Part shown: one piece after another, positions 34,639 to 64,000 of the stretch
How positions within the stretch are numbered: the stretch's first letter is position 1
Layout of the letters: each line of letters begins with the position of its first letter
Origin: Thauera terpenica 58Eu
GTDB taxonomy: Bacteria > Pseudomonadota > Gammaproteobacteria > Burkholderiales > Rhodocyclaceae
NCBI RefSeq assembly: GCF_000443165.1
Contig: NZ_ATJV01000048.1
Span: 186,001-250,000, forward strand
DNA: 64,000 nucleotides
Direction: 5' to 3'
Translations under genes and position numbers: made by a program
The notes under the pieces: model-generated
What the model was told of the DNA's origin: nothing
Database searches by the model: none
Seen by the model: the letters and a program-made list of their open reading frames with translations, nothing else

Positions 34639-35463
34639 CTATCGCCCGGCCACCTGCCCGCCGTCGACGCTGTAGAACTGGCCGCTGATCCATTCGCCCT
34701 GTTTGCTGCACAGGTAGACGACCATGCTGCCGATCTCTGCAGGTGCGCCGGCACGCTTCAAAGGCACATAGGTGTTGATGATCGCTTCCCACTGCGCGGG
34801 CGACAGATCATCCAGGCGGGAGGTGGAGACGATGCCCGGGCAAATCGCATTGACGCGAATGCCATATTGACCCACCTCGCCCGCCATCGCCGCGGTCAAG
34901 GCATGCAGCCCGGCCTTGCTCGCGGCATAGGCGGCGGTGCTGGGCGCCATCAGCTTTCCGCCCACCGACGAGATATTGATGATGGCGCCGCCCTCTCCCT
35001 GCTCGATGAGCTTGCGACCGAACACCTGGCTCATGTAGAAGCTGCCGTTCAGATTGACATCGATCACATTGCGCCAGGCCACCGGGTCGACATCGACCAC
35101 CGGCGCCCGGTCGCCCGCGCGCGCGGCGCCGGCATTGTTGATGACGAAATCCACTCGGCCGAATTCCTGCACCACCTTATCGGCCAGCAGCTTCACCGCC
35201 TCCAGGTCGGCCACGTTGCTGATCAGCGGCAGCGCACGCCTGCCGAGGGCGCGAATCTCCTCCGCCACCGACTCGATATCGCGCCAGCCGGCTTTCTTTT
35301 CGTCATCGGGAAACGCGTCGGGGGAACGGCCACTGCCGGTGATGACGACATCACAACCGGCCTTTGCCAGCTCCAACGCAATCGAGCGCCCAATGCTGCG
35401 CATTCTTCCCGCCCCGGTGACGACGGCGATCTTGCCTTCCAGACCGGTCAATTCGTAGCTCAT
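34639..35463 (-). CDS. Short-chain dehydrogenase/reductase
   Basis: A 274-residue classical SDR that should oxidise or reduce a hydroxyl/keto group with NAD(P). The cofactor motif is TGAGRMRSIGR (a variant with inserted residues, as in FabI-like or long-loop SDRs), NNAG is present, and the catalytic set is Ser in NISSVGG with YxxxK in AAYAASK. It ends in the usual GGQ. It is the last gene of a minus-strand run that includes the OYE-like and ETF:quinone oxidoreductase genes, so an alcohol/ketone step in the same pathway is likely. The stereochemistry and substrate are unknown. Confidence 0.88.
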   Translation of the reverse strand: MSYELTGLEGKIAVVTGAGRMRSIGRSIALELAKAGCDVVITGSGRSPDAFPDDEKKAGWRDIESVAEEIRALGRRALPLISNVADLEAVKLLADKVVQEFGRVDFVINNAGAARAGDRAPVVDVDPVAWRNVIDVNLNGSFYMSQVFGRKLIEQGEGGAIINISSVGGKLMAPSTAAYAASKAGLHALTAAMAGEVGQYGIRVNAICPGIVSTSRLDDLSPAQWEAIINTYVPLKRAGAPAEIGSMVVYLCSKQGEWISGQFYSVDGGQVAGR

Positions 35464-35481
35464 CGCTGATCTTCTCGCTTG

Positions 35482-36576
35482 TCAGTCTGCCAGCGGGTAA
35501 TCCGTGTAGCCGGCGGGGCCGGCGGTGTACAAGGTGCGCCGATCGAAGCCGGCCAGGGGCAGGCCTTCGCGCAGGCGGCGGACCAGATCGGGGTTGCCGA
35601 TGAAGAGGCGGGCAAAGGACACCGCCTGGCCTTCGCCACGCGCCAGCGCCTGTTCGGCGGAAGCGGGGTCGAAGCCGTCGTTGAGGATGAGGCGGCCGGC
35701 AAAGTGCTGTGCAGCCATGCCAAAGGCGTCGATGTCGGACACCGGCGCGCGCATCACGTGTACATAGGCAAGGCCCAGCGGTGCCGCCTGGCGCAGCAGC
35801 TCGGCATGGGTGGCGGCCGAATCCGCGTCATGGGCGTCGTTGAAGGCGTTACCGGGGTTGACCCGGAAGCCCACGCGCCCGGCGCCGATTGCCTCCGCCA
35901 TCACACGCAGGCAATCGACCGCGAAACGCACCCGATTTTCGACCGGACCGCCGTATTCGTCGCTGCGCTGGTTGGTGCCGGTGTACATGAACTGCATGGG
36001 CAGGTAGCCGCTGGTGCAGTGCAGCTCGACGCCATCAAAGCCCGCTTCACGGGCACGCAGCGCGGCGCGGCGGTGGGCGTCGATGGCCGCGCGCACATCG
36101 TCTGCGCTCATTTCGCGGGGCAGGTCAAAAGGCTGCATGCCCGCGGCGTCGGTGAAGATCTGGCCCTGAGCCTGAATCGCCGACGGCGCCAGCGTCTCCA
36201 CGCCGGCCGGCTTGATGTGGACGCTGCCGATGCGGCCCGCGTGCATGATCTGCAGCACGATGCGCCCGCCCTTTGCGTGCACCGCTTCGACCACCTTGCG
36301 CCAGCCCGCGACCTGCGCGTCGGTGACGATGCCCGGCTGGCGGCAGTAGCCCTGGCCTTCCGCGCACGGCCACGCGCCCTCGGCCACGATCAGGCCGGCC
36401 TCAGCGCGCGCGGCGTAGTGTTCGACCATGATCTCGCCGGGCACGCCTTCGGCATCGGCCCGGTTACGCGTCATCGGCGCCATCACGATGCGGTTGGCGA
36501 GCTCAAGCTCGCCCAGCTGCAGCGCTTGAAACAGGAGGCTGGCGTCCGCCCCGGACGCTGCGCTATCGATAGGCAT
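35482..36576 (-). CDS. Old Yellow Enzyme-family ene-reductase
   Basis: A 364-residue FMN-dependent TIM-barrel enzyme of the NADH:flavin oxidoreductase/NemA type, expected to reduce activated C=C bonds. FMN contacts are seen in VMAPMTRNRA near the start and in the late Gly-rich segment; the family block QRSDEYGGPVENR is intact. The substrate-binding pair normally His-x-x-Asn/His reads HCTS, so the second ligand is Ser, which is unusual. AGGAG nine bases before the ATG at 36576 supports the start. It lies 18 bases from the SDR gene and just after the ETF:quinone oxidoreductase gene. Confidence 0.87.
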   Translation of the reverse strand: MPIDSAASGADASLLFQALQLGELELANRIVMAPMTRNRADAEGVPGEIMVEHYAARAEAGLIVAEGAWPCAEGQGYCRQPGIVTDAQVAGWRKVVEAVHAKGGRIVLQIMHAGRIGSVHIKPAGVETLAPSAIQAQGQIFTDAAGMQPFDLPREMSADDVRAAIDAHRRAALRAREAGFDGVELHCTSGYLPMQFMYTGTNQRSDEYGGPVENRVRFAVDCLRVMAEAIGAGRVGFRVNPGNAFNDAHDADSAATHAELLRQAAPLGLAYVHVMRAPVSDIDAFGMAAQHFAGRLILNDGFDPASAEQALARGEGQAVSFARLFIGNPDLVRRLREGLPLAGFDRRTLYTAGPAGYTDYPLAD

Positions 36577-36589
36577 CTCTTCAGTGCTC

Positions 36590-36606
36590 CTTAATGAACG
36601 CTTAAG
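36590..36606 (-). promoter_or_regulatory. PmrA-box-like repeat between the Fe-S protein and OYE genes
   Basis: CTTAAT-N5-CTTAAG on the plus strand, the same spacing as the boxes at 17939 and 22059. It covers the stop codon of the Fe-S protein gene and the ribosome-binding region of the OYE gene, and relative to the OYE gene it is in reverse orientation, so function is doubtful. Confidence 0.3.
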
Positions 36607-38605
36607 CGTCGGCAGGCAGAACCTCGGCCGGCTTCCCGCTACCGTGCTTTTCCCCCAGTGAATCGGCAACCAGCTCGGCGATGTCGAACACCTTGCGCTC
36701 GGGTCCGTCGCGGGTCGCGCTCGAGGTCAGCATCAGCAGGCAGAAGGAGCACGAGGTGGCGATCTTGGCCGCGCCGGTATCGATCGCTTCGCGGGTGCGC
36801 ACGTCACTGATGCGCGGCGTGCCGGGTTTGTTGGTGCTCCAGTAGTTGCAGCCGCCGGCGCCACAGCACATTGCCTCTTTCTTGTTGCGCGGCATCTCGA
36901 TCAGCTTGCCCACTGCGGACACGACCGTGCGCGGCTCCTCGACGATGTCGTTGTGGCGCGCGAGATAGCACGGGTCGTGGAAGGTGATGAGCTCGGCCTC
37001 GTCACGCTCGACCTGCAGCCGGCCCTGGCCGATGAGTTCCTCGATCAGCATGGCGTGCGGGATGGTCACCCAGTCCGCGCCCAGCTCAGGGTAGTAGCGA
37101 TCGAAGCTGTTGTAGCAGTGCGCACACATGGTGATGACTTTCTGGATCTTGCGCTCGCGGAAGGCCTCGATGTTGTCCTGCGCCATTTCCACGAACTGAA
37201 TCTCGTTGCCACCCATCTTCGCCGGGTCGCCGGTGCAGCGCGCCTCACCCAGGATGCCGTAGGACACGCCTGCGGCCTCGAGGATGCGCACCATGGCGCG
37301 GGCCACTTCCTGCGCGCGCTCCTCGTAGGTCACCGCGCAGCCCAGCCACAGCAGGTATTCGGTTTCGCCGGCCTCGAACAAGGGCACATCCAGGCCCTTC
37401 TTCCAGTCGTCCGGGTTGGCCGCGGTGCCGGCGAAGGGATGGCCGCGCGACTCCAGATTGCGGTTCACCATCGCCAGCGAATCGGGCATCTCGGAGCGAT
37501 CCATGACCAGATGGCGCCGCATCTCGAGGACGATTTCAGCCGGGCTGTTGCTCACCGGGCACTCTTCCACACAGGCCGCACAGGTGGTGCAGTCGAAGAT
37601 GGCCTCGGCGCCGATGTCGTCGATCATCTGCGCGTCGTCGATCTTGCCCTGGGCGAGGTAATCGGCGCAGGCCAGCATCACCGTCTTGGGCGACAACGCC
37701 TTGCCCGTCTGTGCGGCTGGACAGGCCTCCTGGCAGCGCCCGCAACCGACGCAGGCGGACAGGTCGAGCAGGCTCTTTTGCGACAGGTCAACAATGCGGC
37801 TGGCGCCCAGCCGCAACTCTTCGTCCTCGGAGTCGAAATCGATCGGCGCGAGCTGGATGCCCGGGCGCTTGCGCACCAGTGCCGAATTGGCCGGGCCAAG
37901 CAACATGTGCGATAGCGGCGTGTAGGCGATGAGGCTGATGAAGGCCACGCCCAGCAAGCCATGCCCCCACCACATCAGCATCTCGCCACGTGTCACGGCC
38001 TCGGCACCCAGCCCACCGAGGCCGGCCGCCAGCATGTTGCCGATGAACTCGCCCGACGAACTGTCCGGCAGCGTGGCCAGGCGGAAGCCCTCGGCGACAA
38101 AGCCGGCGATCACCGTCACCAGCAGCAACACCTCCATCGCCAGAAAGCCCTTGCGCTCGCCGCCCTTGATCAGACGCTCGAGGCCGCTGAGGCGGCGCAC
38201 GAGGAAAAACACCACCCCCAGCAGCATCGCCAGGCCGGCGAGCTCACGCCCCCAGCGCATCAGCACCGTCCCGATCCAGCCCGAATACACCTCGACGCCG
38301 ACAAAGCTGAGCGCAAAGAGCGCATGGCCGAGGATGGCCACCACCGCACCGCCCAGCAGCAGCGTGTGCGCCAGGCCGGCAGCCGGTCGCTTCCACAGGC
38401 GTTCGGTGAGCAGCGCGCGGTGTACGAAGGTGTTGGCGTTGAACGAACGCCCGAACAGGAGCGCGCTCTCCTCGGCCGCAGGCTGCTCCACCAGGCCTTG
38501 CGCGATGCGCAGGCGATGCCGGCGCATGCCCACCACAAGCGCCGCGAAAGCGCCAATGAGCAGCAGCCCGAGAATGAAGTATGCAGTCAGCGACGGAGAG
38601 GACAT
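36602..38605 (-). CDS. Membrane Fe-S ETF:quinone oxidoreductase (HdrDE-like, EMO type)
   Basis: A 667-residue protein that probably moves electrons from reduced ETF to membrane quinone. The N-terminal 240 residues hold about five to six helices like a NarI/HdrE cytochrome b domain. Two [4Fe-4S] ferredoxin motifs follow (CVGCGRCQEACP and CTTCAACVEECP), then two CCG domains (CAHCYNSFDRY; DPCYLARHNDIVEEPR with EAMCCGAGGGxN-like EAMCCGAGGCNYW). This is the layout of the EMO/FadF-like family found with acyl-CoA dehydrogenases and EtfAB. It is the electron outlet of the cluster. Upstream lies a thiolase-DUF35-EtfA run on the same strand. Confidence 0.88.
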   Translation of the reverse strand: MSSPSLTAYFILGLLLIGAFAALVVGMRRHRLRIAQGLVEQPAAEESALLFGRSFNANTFVHRALLTERLWKRPAAGLAHTLLLGGAVVAILGHALFALSFVGVEVYSGWIGTVLMRWGRELAGLAMLLGVVFFLVRRLSGLERLIKGGERKGFLAMEVLLLVTVIAGFVAEGFRLATLPDSSSGEFIGNMLAAGLGGLGAEAVTRGEMLMWWGHGLLGVAFISLIAYTPLSHMLLGPANSALVRKRPGIQLAPIDFDSEDEELRLGASRIVDLSQKSLLDLSACVGCGRCQEACPAAQTGKALSPKTVMLACADYLAQGKIDDAQMIDDIGAEAIFDCTTCAACVEECPVSNSPAEIVLEMRRHLVMDRSEMPDSLAMVNRNLESRGHPFAGTAANPDDWKKGLDVPLFEAGETEYLLWLGCAVTYEERAQEVARAMVRILEAAGVSYGILGEARCTGDPAKMGGNEIQFVEMAQDNIEAFRERKIQKVITMCAHCYNSFDRYYPELGADWVTIPHAMLIEELIGQGRLQVERDEAELITFHDPCYLARHNDIVEEPRTVVSAVGKLIEMPRNKKEAMCCGAGGCNYWSTNKPGTPRISDVRTREAIDTGAAKIATSCSFCLLMLTSSATRDGPERKVFDIAELVADSLGEKHGSGKPAEVLPADA

Positions 38606-38655
38606 CTGCCTAATCCTTTTTTCGGCTTACGTTCGGGCGCTCGCGCACGGCGATT

Positions 38656-39849
38656 TCAGCGCTTGAGGATGGCGGCGGTGGCGTTGCCGCCGAGGCCATT
38701 GGTCTGCGCCAGACCGACGCGCGCATTGGGCACCTGGCGCGCACCGGCTTCACCACGCAACTGCCAGGTGAGTTCCGCAATCTGGAACACGCCCATGGCG
38801 GTGGTGGCCTCACCGAAGGACACGAAGCCGCCCGAGGGGTTGATCGGCATGCGCCCGGTGGGTGCGGTCTCGCCGGCCTCGACCAGACGCTCGGCCTCAC
38901 CCTCGGCGCACAGCCCCCACTCTTCGGGAAAGGCCAGTTCGTAGTAGCAGGTATTGTCCTGCAATTCGGTGAAGCTTATCTCGCTCGGGCCGATACCGGA
39001 ACGCTCGAAGGCACGCATCACCGCCGATTTTGCCTCGGTGTGGAAGCTCGGACCGGAAGGTACAGGCCCTGCCAGGCTGCGCGGCAGCGCATCGTCGAAG
39101 GAGATCGTGGCCACGGTGCTGGTTGCCACCGTGATCGGCTTGCGCGTGAAGCGCCGTGCCATGGCGGCCGAACAGATGATCGCAGCGGCGGCGCCGTTGG
39201 ACACCGGGCAGATCTCGAACAGGCGCAGCGGGTCGCTGACATAGGGCGAGGCCAGCACCTCTTCCACCGTCACGGCCTTCTGGAAGCGCGCATACGGATT
39301 GCCCACCGCACACTGACGCGCCTTGACCGTCACCTTGGCCATCTGCTCTTCGGTGGTGCCGTAGTCGTACATGCGACGGCGCGCCAGCGTGGACCAGAAG
39401 GTCGGCCCCGGCATGCCCACGCAACGCTGACGCAGGTACTCAGGATCATTGACATCGTCCAGGCCGGAGGTCTGGATCATGCCCTTGGGCATCACTTCGC
39501 CACCCACCACCAGCACCATGTCGTGAATGCCACCGGCCACCAGCGAGTAGCCGATGTTGAAGGCGTTGCCGCCTGCAGCGCAACCGGCTGACAGGTTGTA
39601 CACCGGAATACCGGTGCTCCCCATGTCCTCGACGATGTCGTTGCCATTCAGGCCCCAGCCCTTGCCCCCGGAGAAACGGGAACTCGCCGCCGACACCGCC
39701 TCGATCTGGCGCCAGGACACACCCGCATCCTTGAGCGCCATATCCACCGCCGCACGGCACAGTTCGGTGACCGACTTGTTGCCCACGATGGCATCACCGG
39801 TCTTGCCGAAACGGTGCATGCCCACACCCAGCACTACGACTTCCTGCAT
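38656..39849 (-). CDS. SCP2-type thiolase, GHP histidine replaced
   Basis: A 397-residue thiolase-fold protein of the SCPx/lipid-transfer type. The nucleophile region NLSAGCAAGGNA keeps Cys90. The C-terminal block INPSGGFVSFGEATTAMG aligns with the INPSGG...GHPLGATG of SCP2 thiolases but has Glu-Ala in place of the catalytic His-Pro. The DUF35 gene follows directly upstream in the operon, a pairing typical of thiolases and thiolase-like aldolases of steroid and other branched-chain pathways. It could be a thiolytic or retro-aldol enzyme; the altered active site leaves this open. Confidence 0.83.
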   Translation of the reverse strand: MQEVVVLGVGMHRFGKTGDAIVGNKSVTELCRAAVDMALKDAGVSWRQIEAVSAASSRFSGGKGWGLNGNDIVEDMGSTGIPVYNLSAGCAAGGNAFNIGYSLVAGGIHDMVLVVGGEVMPKGMIQTSGLDDVNDPEYLRQRCVGMPGPTFWSTLARRRMYDYGTTEEQMAKVTVKARQCAVGNPYARFQKAVTVEEVLASPYVSDPLRLFEICPVSNGAAAAIICSAAMARRFTRKPITVATSTVATISFDDALPRSLAGPVPSGPSFHTEAKSAVMRAFERSGIGPSEISFTELQDNTCYYELAFPEEWGLCAEGEAERLVEAGETAPTGRMPINPSGGFVSFGEATTAMGVFQIAELTWQLRGEAGARQVPNARVGLAQTNGLGGNATAAILKR

Positions 39850-39862
39850 GTTGTGTACTCCC

Positions 39863-40276
39863 TCAAGCCAGCCTGAACTTCCAGGACGTGAAAGCCTTCC
39901 CGTCCTCGTGATAGATCGGATCGATCACCAGGTCGACGCGCGCACCCACGCGCATGTCCGCCGCCGCGCCTATCATCTGCCCCACCACGCGCAAGCCCTG
40001 ATCCAGATCGACGACCCCGATCACATAAGGCTTGAAGGGCGCATCGAACTGGTGCGGCGGCGGCGGCGGGAAATTCGCCACCGAGTAGCTCCACAGCACA
40101 CCGCCGCCACTGAAGGCCTGGGGCTCGAGGTCAGAGCCGGCGCAATCGGGACTGCGACAGTGCGACGGGGTCGGGAAATAGGGCGTGCCGCAGCACCGGC
40201 AACGGGCGCCGAGCAGGCTCGCGCCGTTTTCCTCGCTGAACAGGCCGGGTACGCAGGGTTCGCGCAATGTACTCAT
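39863..40276 (-). CDS. DUF35 OB-fold zinc protein, thiolase partner
   Basis: A 137-residue protein with the DUF35 layout: an N-terminal zinc ribbon (CRCCGTPYFPTPSHC, with a further Cys) and an OB-fold ending in TSWKFRLA. In known systems these proteins bind to thiolase-like partners and are needed for activity. The start is set at 40276, where GAGGAG stands seven bases upstream; a second ATG directly before it is possible. It lies between etfA and the thiolase gene with gaps of 10-13 bases. Confidence 0.88.
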   Translation of the reverse strand: MSTLREPCVPGLFSEENGASLLGARCRCCGTPYFPTPSHCRSPDCAGSDLEPQAFSGGGVLWSYSVANFPPPPPHQFDAPFKPYVIGVVDLDQGLRVVGQMIGAAADMRVGARVDLVIDPIYHEDGKAFTSWKFRLA

Positions 40277-40286
40277 CATTGTCTCC

Positions 40287-41234
40287 TCAGCCCTTGGCCG
40301 CACGAATCAGTTCGGGCAGCAGCTCGACGCAATCGCCCACCACGCCGAAGCGCGCGTAGCGAAAGATGGAGGCGTCCGGATCCTTGTTGATGGCGATGAT
40401 GGTCTTCGCCGCCGAGCAACCCGCCATGTGCTGGCTTGCGCCCGAGATGCCCGCCGCAATGTAGAGACCGGGACGGGTGATCTTGCCGGTAAGGCCGACC
40501 TGGCGCGAAGAGTCGATCCAGCCGTCATCGACAATCGCGCGCGAACCGCCCCACATGCCACCCAGCGCCTCGGCCATCTGCTTGACGAGCTCGAAGTTCT
40601 CCTGCTTGCCCAGGCCGCGCCCACCGGCGACGATGATCTCTGCATCTTCCAGGCGCTGCGCCTGTACCTTGGGCGCAGACACCACCTCGAAACCGGCCGT
40701 GGGCGCGCCAACATCCACGCTCACACGCTTGGTCTCGACCGCAGCAGGCGCGGCAGCCGCACGTGCCACCAGCCCGGTGGTGACGACCGACAGCACATTG
40801 CGCGGCGCGCTCAGCACGTATTCGGCGCGCGTGTCACCGCCATAGGCGCTGGCCTCGGCCTTGATGCTGCCACCCGCGTTCGACAGCGCCACCACGTTGG
40901 CCAGCACCGGCAGGCCAAGGCGACCCGCCACCCGCGCCGCGATCACGCGGCCTTCGACTGACTGGTTGAACAGGATCAGGTCGGACGCGGTGACGCGGCA
41001 ATAGCCGGCAAACACTGCAACCCGTGCATCGACGCCATCCGCGGCGGTGTCGATCACGTCGACATGGCGCACGCCATGATGGGCCGCAAGCGCGACCGCT
41101 TCTTGCTCAAGCTCGGCCGTCACCGCCCAGCGCATCTCGGCGCCGCGTTCAGTGGCCTGATCGAGGGCAAAGGTCAGGGCCTCGGCGGTGCCGCCCTCGA
41201 TGCTCTTACCCCAGGAAAACAGAACGACAGTCAT
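40287..41234 (-). CDS. etfA: Electron transfer flavoprotein alpha subunit
   Basis: A 315-residue EtfA. The C-terminal FAD domain shows IVAGGRGLG, VDDGWIDSSRQVGLTGK and YIAAGISGASQHMAG, the standard FAD-binding set. EtfA takes electrons from acyl-CoA dehydrogenases only as a dimer with EtfB. No EtfB gene is seen beside it or anywhere in the window, so the partner must be encoded elsewhere. AAGGAG eight bases before the ATG at 41234 fixes the start. It is the first gene of the minus-strand run to the SDR gene and is divergent to the acyl-CoA dehydrogenase operon. Confidence 0.9.
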   Translation of the reverse strand: MTVVLFSWGKSIEGGTAEALTFALDQATERGAEMRWAVTAELEQEAVALAAHHGVRHVDVIDTAADGVDARVAVFAGYCRVTASDLILFNQSVEGRVIAARVAGRLGLPVLANVVALSNAGGSIKAEASAYGGDTRAEYVLSAPRNVLSVVTTGLVARAAAAPAAVETKRVSVDVGAPTAGFEVVSAPKVQAQRLEDAEIIVAGGRGLGKQENFELVKQMAEALGGMWGGSRAIVDDGWIDSSRQVGLTGKITRPGLYIAAGISGASQHMAGCSAAKTIIAINKDPDASIFRYARFGVVGDCVELLPELIRAAKG

Positions 41235-41755
41235 CGCATTCGCTCCTTGCTTCGTGTGCATTAAATATGGAATCGGCCGCTGGACCGCTGCCGCGATTCC
41301 GCATTACCTGCAGCGAAGTCTAGTGGAGCCCGCTGTATCGGGAGACGCACCCTCGAGTCAGATGGGGCCTTTGCCATTTCATTTGCGGACAGCCGGAAAC
41401 ACCCCCGGAAACGCCCCCTCGCACGCACCGAAAATGACACGACACGGAGCATGCCAGCGCGCACAAGACACCCCGCCACATCCTCCCGAAACACGCGCAG
41501 AGCGCGCCTGGCCTGCGCTCAGGCCGCGCCCATCGCGGCGCGCGCCGTGCTGCGCCACGCGCGCAAGAGCCTGACTGGACGAAGCTGCAAGCTCACAGCG
41601 CAATTGTCCGCATCTGCCATTACTCCGGCCACTTACGAAACCCGGTGGGCAGATTCACGTTTTTAACGCTGGCTAGAATGAATCACCGCAGCAAGGGGTA
41701 CGCGACGCAAATATCCCGCGCACCGAATTTTTCAGGAATCACCGAGAGGGCAATC
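41235..41755. promoter_or_regulatory. Divergent control region between etfA and the acyl-CoA dehydrogenase operon
   Basis: This 521-base gap has no convincing gene. Towards etfA a 7-bp dyad GGAATCG/CGATTCC (41269-41275 and 41294-41300) lies just upstream of an AT-rich -10-like stretch near 41261-41268, so it could be an operator. Towards the dehydrogenase a -10-like TAGAAT lies at 41674-41679, and the direct repeat GAATCACCG occurs at 41680-41688 and 41736-41744. No regulator gene is nearby. Confidence 0.45.
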
Positions 41756-48444: not shown

Positions 48445-48466
48445 AAATGGAAACAGGATCACGGCC

Positions 48467-50682: not shown

Positions 50683-50743
50683 AAACAGCCTGGGCGCTGC
50701 GTCCGAACGCGGTGCCCGACCCCATGTGCACGAGGACTTTCGC

Positions 50744-53233: not shown

Positions 53234-53255
53234 CCAACCACCCGAGGAAGCATTC

Positions 53256-53750: not shown

Positions 53751-53832
53751 AGCTCAGATTCGGTCTGAAGCTCTGATTCAGCCTGAAACTCAGCTCCTGC
53801 ACGACCGCGAACACCAGCGAGGCAACACCACC

Positions 53833-56253: not shown

Positions 56254-56364
56254 GCCGCCCTGCGCCACGCCCCACCCACTGACTGAAAGCAGCGGGCGAA
56301 CGCGGCCGCCGCGCATCCTGAATGCGAGGCCCTTGCAGTTCGCCCGTCAATGAGGAGCACGAAC

Positions 56365-57636
56365 TTGAATCCGACCGACCTGTCTGCCGGCCCGCTTGCC
56401 GGCCTGCGCGTACTTGACCTGTCCACCATGCTGGCAGGCCCCTACGGCGCCACCATTCTGGGCGACATGGGCGCCGATGTGATCAAGGTGGAGTCGCCCT
56501 ACGGCGACGAAAGCCGCCACCTCGGCCCCAAGCGCGGCGAGGAGCGCGGCCCCTACCTGAGCCTGAACCGCAGCAAGCGCGACATGGTGCTCGACCTGCA
56601 GCAGCCCGACGCGCAGGCCGTGTTCCAACGCCTGGCCGAAACCACCGACATCCTCATCACCAACATCCGCGAGCCGGCGCTGAGCAAGCTCGGTCTGGAT
56701 TACGAGCAGGTGCGCAAGCACAAGCCCGACATCATCTGGATCCGCGTCACCGCCTTCGGCGCCGACGGCCCCTACGCCGGCCGCCCCGGCATCGACTTTC
56801 TCGCCCAGGGCTACACCGGGGTGCTGATGCTCAATGGCACGCCCGATGGCGAACCGGTACGCACCGGCTTTCCCGCGGTCGACGTCATGACCTCGCTGCT
56901 GGTGAGCAACGCCGCACTCGCCGCCCTGCGCGCCCGCGAACTCACCGGTGAAGGTCAGCGCATCGAAGTGTCGCTGCTCGATGCCCTCATGCATGCACAG
57001 GCCAGCTCGATCGGCACCTATCTGGCCACCGGCGACCGCCCGCAGCGCACCGGCAATCGCAGCCTGTACTTCGCCCCTTCGGGCGTGTATCCGACGCGCG
57101 ACGGCAAGCATGTGGTCATCACCACGCCGGGCGAAAAATTCTTCGCCAAGGTCTGCCGCGCACTCGACAGCGACTGGGACACCGACCCGCGCTTCCACGA
57201 CATCAATGCCCGCCTCACCAACCAGGACGAGCTCGATCGTGTGATGAGCGAGGCCACGCGCCGCTTCGACCGCGAGGAGCTGGTGGCCAAGCTGGTCGCC
57301 GCTGATGTGCTCACCGCGCCGATCAATGACGTCGAAGAAGTGGTGAAAGACCCGCAGATCCTGCACAACCGCATGATCGTCCCGGTCGAACACCCCGAGC
57401 TGGGCCGTATCGACGTCACCGGCATCCCGATCCGCTTCTACGGTACCCCGGTCGAAGTGCGCAAGCACCCGCCCATGCAGGGCGAGCACACGCGCGAAGT
57501 GCTGGCCGAACTGGGCTACGGCGCTGCCGAGATCGAGACCCTGATTGGCGCAGGACTGGTCGCCGACCATATCGAACTCAGGCGCCAGCGCGCCGAGCGC
57601 CGCGCCAAGCGCGCGGCGGCAGCCGACCCCAGCTGA
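56365..57636 (+). CDS. Class III (CaiB/BaiF) CoA-transferase C
   Basis: A class III CoA-transferase of about 423 residues with the catalytic Asp in TGFPAVDVMTSLL and an Arg/Ala-rich C-terminal tail. The start was set at the TTG at 56365 because AGGAG stands eight bases upstream; an in-frame ATG at 56350 overlaps that AGGAG and has no ribosome-binding site of its own, and would add five residues. It is the last plus-strand gene of the operon and is followed by a strong hairpin. Confidence 0.87.
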   Translation: MNPTDLSAGPLAGLRVLDLSTMLAGPYGATILGDMGADVIKVESPYGDESRHLGPKRGEERGPYLSLNRSKRDMVLDLQQPDAQAVFQRLAETTDILITNIREPALSKLGLDYEQVRKHKPDIIWIRVTAFGADGPYAGRPGIDFLAQGYTGVLMLNGTPDGEPVRTGFPAVDVMTSLLVSNAALAALRARELTGEGQRIEVSLLDALMHAQASSIGTYLATGDRPQRTGNRSLYFAPSGVYPTRDGKHVVITTPGEKFFAKVCRALDSDWDTDPRFHDINARLTNQDELDRVMSEATRRFDREELVAKLVAADVLTAPINDVEEVVKDPQILHNRMIVPVEHPELGRIDVTGIPIRFYGTPVEVRKHPPMQGEHTREVLAELGYGAAEIETLIGAGLVADHIELRRQRAERRAKRAAAADPS

Positions 57637-57693: not shown

Positions 57694-57832
57694 CACGTTC
57701 ACGCCGGGCGCAGCCATCTCCGCGTACGGGGACAGCTGCGCCCACGCGCGGGTCACAAGGTGAGGGCGGAATGCAGGCGAAACCGGAAAGGATGCGGCTG
57801 AGGTCTCTCAACGCGCCTGGCTCTTGCAGAAT

Positions 57833-59068
57833 TCAGCGCGGTGCGCGCCGCGCCATGCGCCGCGCCAGCAGCCACGCGATCACCATCGCCAGCACGGTGA
57901 CGACGATCGCCATGTCACCCACACGCTCGAAGCCACTCACCCGCCCGGACTCATCGAACGCGATCATCGCCCCCGCAGCGAGTGCGCCCACGCCCATGCT
58001 GAGCTGGGTGACGACGCCGTTGACCATCATGAAGCCGCCGCGCTGGCTGGCTGAAGGCCATTCGGAGAGCAGCGCGAGCGCCGGAATCCAGCGTCCATAG
58101 ACGATGACGAAGAAGCCTGCGCCCAGCACCACTGCGAGCCACAGCGGCAAGGGTCCACTGCGGCTCATGAAGGCGATGATGGGCAAGGACAGCAGCGCCG
58201 CGCCGGTAAACACCTGCAGCCGGCCCCAACGGTCGGCGAGGCGGCCGATACGGGGTGAGGTGAACAGACTGAGCGCACCGGAGGCGAGAAAGACGAAGGG
58301 CAGTTCGGCCTCGCTGACGCCGACGTTGCCCACCCAGTAGGGGGCGAAATAGGAACCCAGGGCGTAGGCCGATGCGCTCACCGCGAAGGTGAGCGCGAAC
58401 GCGGGCGACAAGGCCGCGAGCCCGCGCAATCTCGTGCTCAGGCCGCTGGCTGCGCCGGCTGCCTCGGGCGCGTGCGCCGCCGGCGCCACCCCCGGCACAT
58501 GGCGGGCGATGGCGATCATCAGCGGCACCACCAGCACCAGCACGAGCGCGAACGAGGCCCGCCAGCTGGACGCCGAAGCCACTGCCAGCCCAAGGGGCAC
58601 GCCGATCACCGAGGCCAGGGCGTGGCCGGTCATCACCGTACCGAGCGCGGCGGCGCGACGCTCGAGCGGCACGTAGTCGGCCACCGTGGCCTGCACCAGC
58701 GAGGACAACACCCCGCCGCAGGCGCCGGCGATGACGCGCGCGAGCAAGAGCGCGCCAAAGCCGCTCGCGGTCACGGTGAGCAGCAGCGACACGGCAAAGC
58801 CGGCATACACGCCGAGCAGTAGCCGGCGTCGGGAAAAACGATGGAGCGTGGCGCCCAGCGCCAAGCCCGCAACACCCGCGCTCACGGTGTAGGCAAAGAT
58901 GAGCTGCCCGAGCGCGGTGAGCGGCATGTCGAAGGTCCGCAGCAGTTGCGGACCCAGCGGCATGAAGATCATGAAGTCCACCAGATGGGTCATGTGCACC
59001 CATCTCAGGACATTGGTCAGGCGCTGTGCAGCGCCTGCCTCGTCCGCCGTGACTTCAGGCTGCCTCAC
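57833..59068 (-). CDS. MFS transporter of the catabolic cluster
   Basis: A 411-residue major facilitator protein with about twelve helices and the TM2-3 type loop (RIGRLADRWGRLQ appears in the second half). It resembles the arabinose-efflux/aromatic-uptake group, and its place in the minus-strand operon suggests uptake of the substrate or export of an intermediate. The start is a GTG overlapping the end of the isomerase-like gene by 14 bases; an ATG around residue 26 is the alternative. Confidence 0.82.
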   Translation of the reverse strand: MRQPEVTADEAGAAQRLTNVLRWVHMTHLVDFMIFMPLGPQLLRTFDMPLTALGQLIFAYTVSAGVAGLALGATLHRFSRRRLLLGVYAGFAVSLLLTVTASGFGALLLARVIAGACGGVLSSLVQATVADYVPLERRAAALGTVMTGHALASVIGVPLGLAVASASSWRASFALVLVLVVPLMIAIARHVPGVAPAAHAPEAAGAASGLSTRLRGLAALSPAFALTFAVSASAYALGSYFAPYWVGNVGVSEAELPFVFLASGALSLFTSPRIGRLADRWGRLQVFTGAALLSLPIIAFMSRSGPLPLWLAVVLGAGFFVIVYGRWIPALALLSEWPSASQRGGFMMVNGVVTQLSMGVGALAAGAMIAFDESGRVSGFERVGDMAIVVTVLAMVIAWLLARRMARRAPR

Positions 59069-59468
59069 TGACCGGCATCATCGACACGTCGTCCGGCGCC
59101 CAGTACGCGCGCATGCGGGTGACCTTCAGCGTGGGGTCGAACTCGAGCACCTCGACCACCGCAATGCACATCTCCCCCTGCGGGGTATTGACGTGAACGT
59201 TGAAGGCCATCGCCGCAGCGAGGCCGTGCGAAGCGCGGATCGGCGTCACCAGCTCGATGCGGGCACCCATCGCCACCGCGCGCTCGTAAAACTCCGTGAT
59301 AGCCGTGCGCCCGCGCACCGGCTCGGTGCCGACGGGGTCCTCCACCGTGGCATCCTCGGCGTAATGGCCGACGATGCGCTTGACATCGCCCGCCGCGAGG
59401 GCATCGATGATGTCCTGCACGATGCGACGCATCTTCTGTGGTGTGTCCTGCGCTGCAGCTGTATCCAT
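59055..59468 (-). CDS. Ketosteroid isomerase-like NTF2-fold protein
   Basis: A 137-residue cone-fold protein strikingly close to delta5-3-ketosteroid isomerase of Comamonas: the stretch EDATVEDPVGTEP aligns almost residue for residue, keeping the catalytic base Asp (Asp44 here, Asp38 in KSI). The oxyanion-hole Tyr14 is replaced by Ile20 and Asp99 by Glu106, so activity on a plain ketosteroid may be altered. AGGAGAG before the ATG at 59468 decides the start. It lies between the EthD-like and MFS genes and is the best hint that the substrate is steroid-like. Confidence 0.87.
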   Translation of the reverse strand: MDTAAAQDTPQKMRRIVQDIIDALAAGDVKRIVGHYAEDATVEDPVGTEPVRGRTAITEFYERAVAMGARIELVTPIRASHGLAAAMAFNVHVNTPQGEMCIAVVEVLEFDPTLKVTRMRAYWAPDDVSMMPVSEAA

Positions 59469-59499
59469 GTCTCTCTCCTGATCTCGCCGCCGTCCTCGC

Positions 59500-60210
59500 T
59501 CAGGCCGGCGCCTTGAGCACATACTGGCTGGTCTGCACGACGTCGATCGTGCGGTAGTCAATGAAACGTTCGCAGCTCTCGCGCATCAGCTGCTGATTGC
59601 GTGCGCTCTTGTCGAGGTCACCCGCAGCATCGAAAAAGGCATCGGTGTTGCCGAAGGCCGCAGGCGGGAAGCCCTCCTCGACGATCGCATCGTAGGCCGG
59701 GGCGTCAAAGCCGAGCGGGCGGGCGACGATGTTCTGCACGTAGAGAAAGGTGTCCTGGGTGTCGATCGCGAGCTGGGTGTGCGACTCCAGCCAGATCTCT
59801 AGCCAGGCCCGGTAGTCGAGCTGCGCAGGCCGACGAAACAGCGCGACCTGGGCAAACCCCGGCGTGCGCTCGCCGCTGGCGACCACAAAGCGGGTGTTGT
59901 GCATCGGCCGCGACTCGCCGACAACATAGCCCGCCACCCGCCCACCGAGACTGCCAAGCTGCTTGTCGAAGGGTTTGCGCCATGCGCCATTGGCCGAATC
60001 GATCCAGATCGAGACGAAAGCCTCCATCTGCGGGCGGCAGGCGCCAAAGCTCGGCGCCGCACCCCGGGCATCGGCGTCGGCGACATTCACCTGCACGCCG
60101 TGCGCACCGAGCTCGACCAGACCCGCCCCGACCTCCTCGCGGACACGGCGACAGAAAGTCGCCGAGTCCATCCGGGGGTCGCGCCACAAGGCATAGACGA
60201 GCTTTTGCAT
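59500..60210 (-). CDS. EthD-like ferredoxin-fold protein
   Basis: A 236-residue protein with two dimeric alpha-beta barrel-like halves (KLVYALWRDPRMDSATFCRR; VALFRRPAQLDYRAWLEIWL), as in the EthD group. These are often accessory or small-molecule-binding proteins of catabolic and antibiotic operons. I see no clear catalytic motif. Its start overlaps the stop of the amidohydrolase gene (ATGA), so the two are coupled. Confidence 0.75.
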   Translation of the reverse strand: MQKLVYALWRDPRMDSATFCRRVREEVGAGLVELGAHGVQVNVADADARGAAPSFGACRPQMEAFVSIWIDSANGAWRKPFDKQLGSLGGRVAGYVVGESRPMHNTRFVVASGERTPGFAQVALFRRPAQLDYRAWLEIWLESHTQLAIDTQDTFLYVQNIVARPLGFDAPAYDAIVEEGFPPAAFGNTDAFFDAAGDLDKSARNQQLMRESCERFIDYRTIDVVQTSQYVLKAPA

Positions 60211-61190
60211 CAGGCTTTCTTGGGCACGCGCTTGGTCGGCTCGATGCCGGTCAGACGCGCGAGGTTGAGGCCGAGGATGTTGGCCTTGTCCTGCTCGGTG
60301 AGCTGGGCGTAACCCCAGTTTTCCTGCAGCTCTTCGGGCATGTCGAAGTAGCGGATGTAATCGGTGACGCGGTTGAGGTCGTCGAACGGCAGGTCGAAAC
60401 CGAGCACGATCTTGTCCGAATTCATCCACTGCAGCGCGGTGCCGATGGCGTGGTAGCCACGATACGGCGCACGCTGATACCAGCCGATGATGCCGGAGAT
60501 GCTCATGTACAGATTCTTGTGCTTGCCGCACAGACCGATCAGCTCCTCGGTGTCGGGCCAGCCCGCGTGGTAGGCGATGATCTTGAGATCGGGGAAGTCG
60601 AGCAGCACGTCGTCGAGCTGGCCCACGGCGCAGTGGTTGCTGGGCTGCGGGCAGACATAGCTCATGCCGGTGTGAATGGTGAGCGGCACGCCGAGCTCGG
60701 AGGCCTTCTCGTAGAACGGCCACAGGCGACGATCATTGATCGCGCCGTCATCTTCGGGCGTGTACAGCTTGCACAGGCGCGCATCGCGCTCCTTGACCAG
60801 GTACTCCAGCTCCCAGTTGGCGTGCTTGATGCCGCGCTTGATCACCGGGCCGACGTTGGCCTCGAGATACATGCGCTCGGGATAGGGCTCGATCTGCTGC
60901 AACATGAAGCCGTTGGTGGACATCGACACCGTGCCGCCGGTGATGTCCATCATCGGCTCGCGCAGGCAGAAGGCCACGTCCACGTTGGCCGAATCCATAT
61001 GCCCGATCAGCGAACTCGCGATCGGCGACGGCCACTCGCTGTCCAGATCGCGACCGGCCCAGGCCTTGAGCACGCCATTGACGCTGTCGTGGAAGTGCTG
61101 CATGCCGGGGTAATAGCCGATTTCACTCATGGTCTGCAGGTTCATGAAGTGGAATTCGGTCATCGCGACGAAATAGTCTTGGTCTGCCAT
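60210..61190 (-). CDS. Amidohydrolase family protein
   Basis: A 326-residue metal-dependent TIM-barrel protein of the amidohydrolase_2 (ACMSD-like) group, with metal or catalytic residues in TIHTGMSYV, IIAYHAGWPDTEEL and GFDLPFDDLN. The usual N-terminal HxH pair is not clear (EFHFMN). These enzymes hydrolyse C-C or C-N bonds or decarboxylate. AGGAGAAG before the ATG at 61190 supports the start. In this cluster a ring-cleavage or decarboxylation step is possible. Confidence 0.82.
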   Translation of the reverse strand: MADQDYFVAMTEFHFMNLQTMSEIGYYPGMQHFHDSVNGVLKAWAGRDLDSEWPSPIASSLIGHMDSANVDVAFCLREPMMDITGGTVSMSTNGFMLQQIEPYPERMYLEANVGPVIKRGIKHANWELEYLVKERDARLCKLYTPEDDGAINDRRLWPFYEKASELGVPLTIHTGMSYVCPQPSNHCAVGQLDDVLLDFPDLKIIAYHAGWPDTEELIGLCGKHKNLYMSISGIIGWYQRAPYRGYHAIGTALQWMNSDKIVLGFDLPFDDLNRVTDYIRYFDMPEELQENWGYAQLTEQDKANILGLNLARLTGIEPTKRVPKKA

Positions 61191-61227
61191 GTTCGCTTCT
61201 CCTTTGGTGAAAGTGAGGCCGGGTTTC

Positions 61228-62007
61228 TCAGCGCCCGGTATATACAGGCTTGCGCTTCTCGGCAAAGGCACGTGGGCCTTCCTGCGCATCATCGGACGCG
61301 AACACGCGGGCCGACATGGTTTTCTCGAGCACGAAGGCGGGCTCGTTGTTGAGCGCGCGCACGGCGATTTCCTTGGCGGTGCGCACCGCCAGCGGGCCGT
61401 TCTCGCAGATGCGCTGGGCATAGGCGAGGGCTTCGTCCATGAGCTTGTCGGCGGGCACGACCTTGTTGATGAGGCCGACTTCGTAGGCACGTTTGGCGTC
61501 GATGGTGTTGCCGGTCAGCAGCATCTCCATCGCGATTGCCCATGGCACCTGCTGCGGCAGACGAATGTGCGAGCCCCCCGCCGGCACCACCGCCCAGCGC
61601 ACTTCGGCGAGGCCGAACTTGGCGTGCTCGGCGGCAATGCGGATGTCGGTGCCGAGCATGAACTCCAGCCCGCCGGCCACGCACACGCCGTTAACGGCGG
61701 TGATGATGGGCTTGAAATTGCGCTGGAATGGCCGCTTGGCGGGGTCTTCGTAGCCCATTGCGTCGCCGTCATTGAGCGCCGGCAGGGCGACCTTGAGGTC
61801 GAGACCGGTGCAGAACGCACGCTCGCCGGCACCGGTGAAGATGGCCACGTGCAGCGCAGGGTCGGCCTCGAAGTCATCGAAGGCGGCCTCCAGGCCGATG
61901 AGCATCTCCTTGGTGAGCGAGTTCATCGCTTCGGAGCGATTCATGGTGATGATCGCGATCGGGCCACGTTTTTCGTAGACCACGCTTTCGGGCAGATTCA
62001 GTTCCAT
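61228..62007 (-). CDS. Enoyl-CoA hydratase/isomerase family protein 2
   Basis: A 259-residue crotonase with the oxyanion-hole segments ERAFCTGLDLKV and VNGVCVAGGLEFMLG. A Glu in FGLAEVRWAVVP stands at the first catalytic position; the second Glu position is unclear. It may hydrate or isomerise an unsaturated CoA ester. The start is placed at 62007 with AGGAG upstream; an ATG immediately before it is possible. A further partial crotonase lies at the window end. Confidence 0.87.
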   Translation of the reverse strand: MELNLPESVVYEKRGPIAIITMNRSEAMNSLTKEMLIGLEAAFDDFEADPALHVAIFTGAGERAFCTGLDLKVALPALNDGDAMGYEDPAKRPFQRNFKPIITAVNGVCVAGGLEFMLGTDIRIAAEHAKFGLAEVRWAVVPAGGSHIRLPQQVPWAIAMEMLLTGNTIDAKRAYEVGLINKVVPADKLMDEALAYAQRICENGPLAVRTAKEIAVRALNNEPAFVLEKTMSARVFASDDAQEGPRAFAEKRKPVYTGR

Positions 62008-62072
62008 CATTTCTCCTGTCGTCAGTGCTTGCTGGTCGCCTTCGCGGCAAGCGCCGCGACCGCCACCCACGT

Positions 62073-62498
62073 TCAATCCTTGCTGCGTCTGAAGTAAGGC
62101 AACCACACCTGGTCGCTGACCTGGGTCAGCACCAACTCGACCGCCATCCCGATCGCCAGCTCACCCGCTGCGCAATCGACCACCCTGCTCAGCATGCGCA
62201 CGCCTTCGTCGAGCTCGACGATCACCGGCGCGTAAGGGGCATCTTCGGCGAAAGCCGGATGCAGCGGGCGCACCACATCGGTCCACGAAAACACCATGCC
62301 ACGTCCACTGGAGCGTGCCCACACCCATTTGGATGAGGCGCAGTGCGCGCACAGCTCGCGCGGCACGTGGCGGTGGCGCCCGCAGTCCTCACAGCGCTGG
62401 AAGCGCAGCTCGCCTTGTGCGCACCAACGATAGAATTCACCCGCCAGCCCCGTCAGCGCGGGCAAGGGTTTGGCGTGATCGGCGCGTGCTGCATTCAT
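62073..62498 (-). CDS. DUF35 OB-fold zinc protein, second thiolase partner
   Basis: A 141-residue DUF35 protein: zinc ribbon CEDCGRHRHVPRELCAHC and an OB-fold (VFSWTDVVRPLHPAFAEDAP). It follows the second thiolase-like gene by 25 bases. The repeat of the thiolase/DUF35 pairing in one cluster points to two different carbon-carbon cleaving complexes. Confidence 0.87.
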   Translation of the reverse strand: MNAARADHAKPLPALTGLAGEFYRWCAQGELRFQRCEDCGRHRHVPRELCAHCASSKWVWARSSGRGMVFSWTDVVRPLHPAFAEDAPYAPVIVELDEGVRMLSRVVDCAAGELAIGMAVELVLTQVSDQVWLPYFRRSKD

Positions 62499-62523
62499 GT
62501 CCGGTTCCTTCTTCACTGCAGGC

Positions 62524-63687
62524 TCAGCGCCGCAGGATGGCGATGCTGCCATCACCAAAATCGCCCCAGCCGGTGACCACGCCGATCTCGGCATTCGTCA
62601 CCTGGCGCGCATCGGCCTGGCCGCGCAACTGGCGCACGGCCTCGACCACATGGCTGATGCCCAGCACATGGGCCTGCGACAACAGGCCGCCGTGGGTGTT
62701 GACGGGCAGGCGCCCGCCGAGCTCGATGCCGCCATTCTCGACGAAGGCGCCGCCTTCGCCGCGCGCGCAGAAACCGGCCTCCTCGAGCTGCTGGATGACC
62801 TCGAAGGTGAAGCAGTCGTAGATCTGCGCGAAATCGACGTCCTCGGGCTTGACCCCGGCCATGCGAAAGGCCTCGGGTGCGGCGGTGGAGAGGCCGATGC
62901 GATGAAAGTCGGGACGGCCGCAGATCTCGTCTGCCGGATAGGGCTGACTGGCGGCCGCGCCCATGATGAACACCGGGTCCTGGCGCAGGTCGCGCGCGCG
63001 CTCGGCGCTGGTGACCACGAAGGCCGCGCCACCGTCGGTCTCCAGGCTGCAATCGAACAGGCGGTAGGGCGAGGAGATCATCGGCGAGGCGAGATATTGC
63101 TCCATCGTCAGCGGCTTGCCATACATGAGCGCGGCCGGGTTGAGCTGGGCATGACGGCGCATCGCGATCGCCACCGCGCCGAGTTGCTCCTCGGTGGTGC
63201 CGAATTCATGCATGTGGCGCCGTGCCATGAGCGCATACCACTGCGGCGGCGCGGTGAGGCCGAAAGGCAGGTAGAAGTCGCGCGCAATGGCGCCACCGGG
63301 GATGGAATTGAGGTCGTTGGCCGCAGTTTCGCGCACGCGCGCGCCGGAATAACCATTCCAGCCCCCGGGCACCAGCACGTAATCCGCCACGCCGCTCGCC
63401 ACCGCCATCGCCGCTGCGCGCAGCGAAGCCACCGGTGCTGCGCCGCCCATGTGCACGGTGGCGGCAAAGCGCAGATTGCTGCAACCCAGCTCGGCGGCAA
63501 AGGCCTCGGATTTGCCGACGTTGGGAAAGGGCAGGATGCCGTCGATCTGGGCCGGCTTGAGGCCGGCGTCCTCGATCGCGGCCAAGGCCGCCTGGAGCTG
63601 GATGCCCATCTCCGACAGGCCGGAACCTGGCTTGCGGCAGAACGGGGTTTCACCGATGCCGACGATGCAGGCCTTGTCGCGCAACAT
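62524..63687 (-). CDS. Thiolase-like protein without nucleophile Cys (Ltp2-like)
   Basis: A 387-residue thiolase-fold protein. Where thiolases carry the nucleophile Cys it reads VHMGGAAPVASLRAA, with none. The GHP-type position keeps His (SQAHVLGISH), and a YDCFTFEVIQQLEEAGFC block is present. Loss of the Cys and pairing with DUF35 match thiolase-like aldolases such as Ltp2, which cleave by retro-aldol reaction in steroid side-chain breakdown. It is the mirror image of the thiolase at 38656, which has the Cys but lacks that His. Confidence 0.86.
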   Translation of the reverse strand: MLRDKACIVGIGETPFCRKPGSGLSEMGIQLQAALAAIEDAGLKPAQIDGILPFPNVGKSEAFAAELGCSNLRFAATVHMGGAAPVASLRAAAMAVASGVADYVLVPGGWNGYSGARVRETAANDLNSIPGGAIARDFYLPFGLTAPPQWYALMARRHMHEFGTTEEQLGAVAIAMRRHAQLNPAALMYGKPLTMEQYLASPMISSPYRLFDCSLETDGGAAFVVTSAERARDLRQDPVFIMGAAASQPYPADEICGRPDFHRIGLSTAAPEAFRMAGVKPEDVDFAQIYDCFTFEVIQQLEEAGFCARGEGGAFVENGGIELGGRLPVNTHGGLLSQAHVLGISHVVEAVRQLRGQADARQVTNAEIGVVTGWGDFGDGSIAILRR

Positions 63688-63691
63688 CGTC

Positions 63692-64000
63692 TCAGCTCTC
63701 CTCGTCCTGCGGCTTGCTTTCGGCCTGATAGGCGTCGAGCAGCGCCTGGCGCGCGTCGGCCTCGCGTTCGCGCAGGCGCCAGAACTCGGGCTTGCGCTTG
63801 GCGAGGAAGGCAGCGCCGCCCTCCTTGCCTTCGGGCATGTCGAACCAGTCCGGATACATGGCGGCCGAGGTCACGCAGGATTCGCGATAGCCGTCCATCT
63901 CCTGGTCAAAGGAAGCCTTCAGCACTTCCAGGCAGCCCGGGCTCTTCTCGAGCAGTTCGGCGCACCAGCGTTCGACTTCGGCCTCGAGCTCGTCGAGCGG
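63692..64000 (-). CDS. Enoyl-CoA hydratase family protein, C-terminal part
   Basis: The last 102 residues of a crotonase-like protein whose start lies beyond the right edge. The visible part (beginning LDELEAEVERWCAELL) shows the usual C-terminal helices and EGGAAFLAKRKPEF, a common end of the family, followed by a charged tail. The frame is open to the last base of the window. It is upstream of the Ltp2-like gene in the same minus-strand operon with a 4-base gap. Confidence 0.8.
   Translation of the reverse strand, partial: PLDELEAEVERWCAELLEKSPGCLEVLKASFDQEMDGYRESCVTSAAMYPDWFDMPEGKEGGAAFLAKRKPEFWRLREREADARQALLDAYQAESKPQDEES

Follow-up and report, generated by a model that had tools for sequence, protein, structure and literature searches.

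A predicted anaerobic 2,3-seco steroid degradation island in Thauera terpenica 58Eu and its suggested link to F420

Anaerobic testosterone degradation by the 2,3-seco pathway proceeds through desaturation at C1 and reduction of the delta-4 bond, after which AtcABC carries out hydration and oxidation at C1; a hydrolase then opens the ring to give 2,3-SAOA, a coenzyme A (CoA) ester is made, and the ester is desaturated, hydrated, and cleaved aldolytically (PMC6678751). The ring A hydrolase, CoA activation, and ring B cleavage have been described as steps without a known enzyme or mechanism (PMC6678751). Passages of PMC5554518 report that purified Steroidobacter AtcABC acts in this way, adding water to C1=C2 of 1-testosterone and oxidizing the alcohol to the 1,3-dione. 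Clusters of this type are known from Steroidobacter denitrificans, Thauera sp. GDN1, T. terpenica 58Eu, and T. butanivorans, and according to passages of PMC9980454, atcABC is present in 3 of 26 Thauera genomes (the latter three) as well as in Azoarcus and Aromatoleum. Here we analyze a 64,000-nucleotide window of the T. terpenica 58Eu genome (contig NZ_ATJV01000048.1, or C48, positions 186001-250000; assembly of 4,145,786 bases in 135 contigs). Its right-hand genes and their continuation on the contig very probably constitute the known 2,3-seco pathway cluster, with a molybdenum (Mo) enzyme predicted to be AtcABC.

Comparison with the described systems supports this placement. As in the known atcABC clusters, the window encodes a predicted AtcABC orthologue, here with exact atcA primer sites; the genera Azoarcus and Aromatoleum recur both in passages of PMC9980454 and in our searches, and no core difference was evident. 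The acd3 cluster of Sterolibacterium denitrificans, as presented in parts of PMC6678751, shares a CoA-transferase, AtcABC, and an electron-transfer flavoprotein (ETF) beta gene with the island, and the legend to Figure 11 of that paper places CofC, CofD, and CofE beside acyl-CoA synthetase 3. Gene order differs between the two organisms; in T. terpenica the contig is shared with FbiC and CofC, whereas CofD and CofE lie elsewhere.

The molybdenum enzyme and the class of the pathway

The window holds a complete three-gene set of the xanthine oxidase family, with Mo, FAD, and 2Fe-2S subunits (52358-56253). Degenerate atcA primers have been published with a reported product of about 1100-1200 bp (passages of PMC5554518), and both match here with 0 mismatches, at 53935-53957 on the plus strand and 55081-55107 on the minus strand, for a predicted product of 1173 bp; shuffled sequence gave means of 0.01 and 0.00 matches. 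No NCBIfam model exceeded its cut-off in a scan of the Mo large subunit. A scan of named genomes with an 11-orthologue alignment gave at least 80 loci; a tree was built from 80 of these, 8 further homologues, and the window sequence (89 sequences), and all counts from this set refer to the matches listed. At least 60% identity to AtcA was found in 22 of the 89 (next, 41%), and these 22 formed one clade (support, 1.0) apart from the 67 other homologues, with members 60-88% identical to the window's large subunit. The active-site motif GPPPH was present in 22/22 clade members and 0/67 others. Among the 21 clade members besides the window, 20 carry the reverse primer site with no more than 2 mismatches and 14 carry the forward site with no more than 3, whereas the 59 nonclade loci of the same scan had at least 5 mismatches at both sites. 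The scan hits include Aromatoleum, Azoarcus, and Sterolibacterium metagenome-assembled genomes (MAGs), and the clade, in a tree of sequences other than that of the purified Steroidobacter enzyme, contains T. butanivorans NBRC 103042 (87%), a reported atcABC carrier.

In a family sample of 199 genomes, 12 encoded AtcA at 69% identity or more (next best, 40%) and 187 did not; among plasmids, 33 records matched and 0 reached 60%. In one of the 12, G129, a further AtcA-like copy was found at 70%. In the draft genome G132, the match is split into two pieces (residues 21-517 and 536-800; G132:C185:6574-8852), which may reflect an interrupted gene or a misassembly.

Two other assignments of the Mo enzyme have to be considered. 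According to parts of the published accounts, oxygenated monoterpenes served for the isolation of T. terpenica, which has many genes in common with the Castellaniella terpene island; one molybdopterin-binding oxidoreductase with a T. terpenica homologue is listed in the Castellaniella table, and a mutant in molybdenum transport did not grow on substrates of the limonene type. These reports would suit a monoterpene pathway (menthol, cineole, or limonene) whose Mo enzyme would have a small cyclic ketone as its substrate. However, the large subunit groups in the AtcA clade with the Sterolibacterium MAGs and carries the atcA primer sites, and the PDB matches of two further enzymes are of steroid type: thiolase 2 matches 6ok1, listed as a lipid-transfer protein, which we take to be the Ltp2-DUF35 steroid side-chain aldolase, and acyl-CoA dehydrogenase 1 matches 6wy8 and 4x28, presumably actinobacterial steroid acyl-CoA dehydrogenases. 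We therefore reject monoterpene degradation as the main function and regard it as very improbable. A generic Mo hydroxylase of an aromatic or N-heterocycle pathway could be argued from the best PDB sequence match of the large subunit, quinoline 2-oxidoreductase (420.7 bits), but the AtcA clade, with identities of 60-88%, leaves the 67 other homologues examined outside, and the probability of this assignment is negligible.

The steroid class of the island and its independence of O2, both put forward in the earlier note together with an AtcABC-type enzyme, are thus supported by sequence evidence: the primer sites, clade, and active-site motif of the Mo enzyme and the steroid-type matches just described. 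That note had further suggested that the route may be different or new; the evidence instead favors the 2,3-seco pathway already published. Neither a Rieske nor an extradiol ring oxygenase was found among the island genes scanned, which include LLM and NMO-family flavin proteins, and the lack of a ring oxygenase fits because none is expected in the 2,3-seco pathway. Neither kstD/AcmB nor the 9,10-seco genes kshAB and hsa were found in the scan of window genes beginning at 34639, with no genome-wide search made for them.

Deazaflavin-type genes and their co-occurrence with AtcA

Several deazaflavin-type genes lie on contig C48, for the most part outside the window: those for FbiC and CofC, for a Ddn-like reductase, and for two LLM proteins, together with one Fno-like domain. 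A link to F420 was not apparent to an earlier reader of the window alone. The biosynthesis set for F420 is complete in the genome, with FbiC (CofG plus CofH; 1050 bits, cut-off 1018), CofC (152.6; 105), CofD (290.5; 257.45), and CofE (235; 180.65) all over curated cut-offs. The distance to atcA is 37-38 kb for CofC and FbiC; CofD and CofE are on contig C70. LLM 2 also exceeds its model cut-off (185.8 bits; 166.9). The Ddn-like protein scored 94.6 bits against TIGR00026 (cut-off, 46.35), and its best PDB match was Ddn (3r5l, presumably from Mycobacterium tuberculosis; 97.6 bits over residues 78-190). It has about 75 extra N-terminal residues relative to Ddn, and some residues that we take to be cofactor or substrate contacts of Ddn differ; GRKSG was invariant in 22 aligned Ddn-like sequences, at least two of them from the same genome twice. 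Family model and nearest structure are both deazaflavin enzymes, which makes the protein a candidate Ddn-type, F420H2-dependent reductase.

In the family sample, the Ddn-like protein (at least 58% identity) was found in 12/12 AtcA genomes and 0/187 others (next best, 42%; Fisher test, 1.7e-19). Because relatives share genes, arrangements were also counted within genera, and within the six genera concerned the observed arrangement was 1 in 9000 (genus sizes taken from the matches listed). In 6 of the 12 genomes the two genes lie no more than about 20 kb apart; five drafts have them on separate contigs, and in G027 the distance is about 565 kb. The DUF2889 protein encoded in the window showed the same distribution at 48% identity or more (12/12, one match partial, versus 0/187; others at most 38%). 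A named set was also compared, comprising 21 AtcA genomes, at least 4 of which are in the family sample too, and 18 controls chosen from the 59 lower-identity loci. Here the Ddn-like protein reached 58% in 15/21 AtcA genomes and 0/18 controls, and a Ddn-like match of any strength was found in 21/21 and 6/18. Plasmids gave no match to the Ddn-like protein at an E value of 1e-20 or below. A class-wide sample, in which 0/368 genomes besides the window's own had the Ddn-like protein (E value, 1e-30 or below) or AtcA (1e-150 or below), is uninformative. Two family genomes, G083 and G129, each have three FbiC/CofH matches over cut-off. The predicted structure of the DUF2889 protein is poor (mean pLDDT, 61.3), and the Foldseek hits of this model, mostly MHC-like chains with query TM scores of 0.20-0.26, were treated as meaningless; one published passage mentions a remote fold assignment for DUF2889, with the fold unnamed.

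These data suggest that F420 takes part in the anaerobic testosterone pathway. We tentatively propose, at somewhat below an even chance, that ring A degradation is deazaflavin driven: the Ddn-type enzyme and a long OYE would carry out a reduction required by AtcABC, probably that of delta-4, LLM and Fno-like proteins would supply F420H2, and the DUF2889 protein would be an unrecognized pathway enzyme. Several observations weigh against this proposal or the cluster assignment beneath it. Function, substrate, and induction of AtcABC in this strain are predicted. In the family sample, CofD was over cut-off in 10/12 AtcA genomes but also in 9/187 others, and CofH/FbiC in 10/12, with partial matches in the other two, but also in 11/187. 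CofD was found in 21/21 named AtcA genomes (20 over cut-off) and likewise in 12/18 controls, and therefore says little on its own outside the family. Six of the 21 named AtcA genomes have no Ddn-like protein at 58% or more. G044, an AtcA genome in one contig with the Ddn-like gene and FbiC, gave no CofD match; in G132, 81% complete, FbiC is represented just by a fragment where a contig ends, and CofD again gave no match. The best PDB matches of LLM 1 are mostly FMN-type monooxygenases. Finally, co-occurrence speaks for shared pathway membership and not for mechanism, and other island genes may match it.

Alternatively, the island may be a 2,3-seco cluster in which the deazaflavin-type genes are bystanders, the Ddn-like and LLM proteins using FMN or NADPH and F420 serving otherwise. 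We give this explanation close to an even chance. The missing CofD in G044, the FMN-type relatives of LLM 1, the F420 genes of genomes lacking AtcA, and the AtcA genomes outside the family without a close Ddn-like protein all favor it, but the strict pairing of the Ddn-like protein with AtcA in the family sample, which holds despite the gap in G027 and the separate contigs of five drafts, speaks against it. So do the position of FbiC in G027 and G087, where it follows the third of the conserved gene blocks described below by some 1-2 kb on the same strand, and the listing of the Cof genes next to acyl-CoA synthetase 3 in a Sterolibacterium steroid cluster in PMC6678751.

The pathway type is already known; the F420 link and the two candidate enzymes, the Ddn-like and DUF2889 proteins, look new. 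F420 has 0 occurrences in PMC9980454, and deazaflavin-type genes go unmentioned in its 2,3-seco passages. Among the papers listed in PMC full-text searches of main texts for F420 in anaerobic steroid degradation (20 of 72 in one of them), PMC6678751 was the one found to have F420 in the context of a steroid cluster, through the legend of a figure that names the three Cof genes; PMC10100899, PMC9987714, PMC3685469, and PMC7253369 also contain F420 but looked off-topic by title. The F420 review PMC8498797 has 0 occurrences of steroid and cholesterol, and its passages on betaproteobacteria draw inferences from genomes.

Layout and conservation of the island

The genes at 34639-63687 and the next 33 kb or so of the contig form one catabolic island. 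From 34639 to its end, the window (65% GC) has 27 complete genes and one cut by the edge, in line with the "about 28" counted previously, and third-position GC of coding type backs these calls. Families were assigned by Pfam cut-offs and NCBIfam/TIGR models by curated cut-offs (Table 1). The families named in the earlier note are present where it had placed them, and each passed its Pfam cut-off apart from that of the second MaoC-type gene. Two of its names had to be revised: the racemase-like AMACR protein belongs to a group of four family III CoA-transferases encoded in the window (starting at 42953, 47212, 48467, and 56350; more lie beyond its end), and what was taken for an ETF:quinone oxidoreductase is a membrane protein of CCG/Fe-S type rather than the classical flavoprotein. 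A luciferase-like LLM oxidoreductase, DUF2889, crotonase-fold genes, an MFS transporter, and an amidohydrolase are additions to its list. Divergent gene runs leave a 383-base gap (41262-41644), from which ETF alpha, DUF35 1, thiolase 1, the Fe-S/CCG protein, OYE, and SDR genes run on the minus strand and acyl-CoA dehydrogenase 1 through CoA-transferase 4 on the plus strand.

Table 1. Genes of the island, in window positions unless prefixed C48 (bits, model or PDB scores; percentages, identity in relatives)
Feature	Position	Strand	Basis	Remarks
SDR dehydrogenase, last gene of left operon	34639..35463	-	PF13561, 190.6 bits	Candidate hydroxysteroid dehydrogenase; best matches just 30-35% in relatives' regions fetched
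OYE-family flavin reductase	35482..36669	-	PF00724, 235.4 bits	BaiCD model 115.5 bits, far under cut-off 825; 78% in G193
Membrane Fe-S/CCG protein	36602..38605	-	Two CCG stretches and 4Fe-4S dicluster domain	Probable ETF-to-quinone electron carrier; 76% in G193, 59-66% where seen in further relatives
Thiolase-fold enzyme 1, partner of DUF35 1	38656..39849	-	Best PDB match SCP2-thiolase 6hsj, 197.7 bits	64-92% where orthologue found in relatives' regions fetched
DUF35 partner 1 (ChsH2-type OB-fold)	39863..40303	-	PF01796, 58.9 bits	
Electron-transfer flavoprotein alpha	40287..41261	-	PF00766, 112.6 bits	
Acyl-CoA dehydrogenase 1	41645..42937	+	PF00441, 96.4 bits; best PDB matches 6wy8, 4x28	
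Family III CoA-transferase/racemase-like protein 1	42953..44113	+	PF02515, 279.9 bits	
MaoC-fold hydratase pair, two adjacent genes	44157..45163	+	PF13452, 41.9 bits; PF01575, 24.5 bits (cut-off 27)	
Acyl-CoA dehydrogenase 2	45244..46404	+	PF00441, 104 bits	IpdE2 model 143.9 bits, under cut-off 450
DUF2889 protein	46441..47196	+	PF11136, 33.6 bits (cut-off 25)	
Family III CoA-transferases 2 and 3	47212..49687	+	PF02515, 324.1 and 331 bits	
LLM-class oxidoreductase (LLM 1), F420-type subfamily	49759..50682	+	TIGR03619, 210.9 bits (cut-off 166.9)	
Enoyl-CoA hydratase/crotonase-fold protein 1	50690..51574	+	PF00378, 150.7 bits	Score is for the longer ORF 50552-51574
SnoaL_4 protein, ketosteroid-isomerase-like fold	51590..52228	+	PF13577, 82.9 bits	
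Predicted Atc FAD subunit	52358..53233	+	PF00941, 151.6 bits	
Predicted Atc 2Fe-2S subunit	53208..53750	+	PF01799, 111.6 bits	
Predicted AtcA, Mo-binding large subunit	53833..56253	+	atcA primer sites, clade, GPPPH motif	
Family III CoA-transferase 4	56350..57636	+	PF02515, 407.7 bits	Candidate activator of ring A acid
MFS transporter	57833..59068	-	PF07690, 136.4 bits	
SnoaL_2 protein	59055..59561	-	PF12680, 44 bits	
Amidohydrolase	60210..61490	-	PF04909, 100.1 bits	Candidate ring A C-C hydrolase
Enoyl-CoA hydratase/crotonase-fold protein 2	61228..62106	-	PF00378, 201.6 bits	
DUF35 partner 2	62073..62594	-	PF01796, 70 bits; PF12172, 37.1 bits	
Thiolase-fold enzyme 2	62524..63687	-	Best PDB match 6ok1, 276.6 bits	Candidate Ltp2-like aldolase
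Crotonase-fold protein 3 (end)	63692..64000, on to C48:250669	-		
ETF-domain gene without alpha domain (beta type)	C48:275389-276177		PF01012, 86.5 bits	

Three gene-order blocks recur in relatives, so the grouping of the island is not due to chance. These are atcABC with CoA-transferase 4; ETF alpha, DUF35 1, and thiolase 1, in several genomes followed by the Ddn-like gene and long OYE; and CoA-transferases 6 and 5, crotonase 3, thiolase 2, DUF35 2, and crotonase 2. CoA-transferase 4 (75-89%) was present at varying distance in 10/12 relatives' regions around AtcA, the exceptions being the region fetched from G162 and that around the second AtcA copy of G129. The run from acyl-CoA dehydrogenase 1 to the SnoaL_4 gene is single and unbroken in G193 and G044, and the part from the first MaoC gene on is kept at L053, L056, L058, and L071; the other relatives' regions end too early or are without it. 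Among the genes scanned, beta-oxidation and aldolase-type genes accompany AtcABC, and a CoA-transferase and an ETF-beta type gene lie near it in relatives, as in the Sterolibacterium acd3 cluster. The amidohydrolase has an orthologue (61-89%) near AtcA in 8/21 named loci, among the matches listed; its open reading frame shares 263 bases with the next gene, so the start codon is probably further in.

Right of the window, crotonase 3 is followed by two CoA-transferases, DUF1302, DUF1329, a ferric reductase-like protein, the adjacent long OYE and Ddn-like genes, an AraC-type regulator, XdhC, LLM 2, and a hydrolase. Then come COXG-like, crotonase-fold, and amidohydrolase-type genes, a CoA-transferase, an AMP-binding CoA ligase (C48:270425-272062), another CoA-transferase, an NMO-family protein, the ETF-beta type gene, an open reading frame that is Fno-like in its C-terminal part (match to F420-dependent NADP oxidoreductase, PF03807, 76.1 bits), CofC, and FbiC. 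The DUF1302/DUF1329 pair (L003:4307-7469) has counterparts at 77% and 86% in G193 and at 66% and 68% in one stretch of G044.

On contig C70 of the same genome, CofE and CofD adjoin an operon of the type II DMSO reductase family, to which ethylbenzene and steroid C25 dehydrogenases belong; the beta subunit of the operon exceeds the model cut-off, and the alpha and gamma subunits are narrowly under theirs (931.9 versus 984.75 and 165.5 versus 169.85). This second locus (L133:4326-19999) also encodes an MFS protein, an HsaD-like hydrolase, a long BaiCD-like OYE, and SnoaL-like, thiolase-like, and sulfotransferase-like proteins. Left of the island, the window contains a type I restriction-modification system (HsdR, HsdS, and HsdM; 26308-33695) with a RhuM/Fic-domain gene inside it, an unusually low third-position GC in HsdS (0.55), and a GNAT-like gene at its edge (33673-34269), as well as tandem Pro, Arg, and His tRNA genes (14982-15291).

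Proposed ring A route and its meaning

In the proposed route, delta-4 reduction would precede AtcABC and might be carried out by the long OYE and the Ddn-like enzyme, with FbiC, CofC, CofD, and CofE making the F420 and the Fno-like or LLM proteins reducing it. By orthology, AtcABC would then hydrate C1=C2 of 1-testosterone and oxidize the alcohol to the 1,3-dione. Ring A may be opened by the amidohydrolase or a crotonase-fold protein, and the thioester could be made by a family III CoA-transferase or the AMP-binding CoA ligase. Acyl-CoA dehydrogenases together with MaoC or crotonase hydratases would ready this thioester for the thiolase-fold/DUF35 pairs, which would cleave it, probably in a retro-aldol reaction. 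Thiolase 2 resembles the presumed Ltp2-DUF35 aldolase (6ok1) in having an adjacent DUF35 gene and differs in a Val aligned to a Cys in the N-terminal half of 6ok1; thiolase 1 keeps Cys90, and neither has the GHP motif. The absence of GHP from both and the Val-for-Cys exchange would favor cleavage other than ordinary thiolysis. Electrons would pass through ETF and the Fe-S membrane protein, presumably EMO-like, to the quinone pool.

In sum, the 2,3-seco pathway clears steroid hormones where oxygen is absent, and co-occurrence with AtcA provides two candidate proteins for it, the Ddn-like reductase and the DUF2889 protein. The link to F420 further suggests a use for this cofactor in betaproteobacteria.

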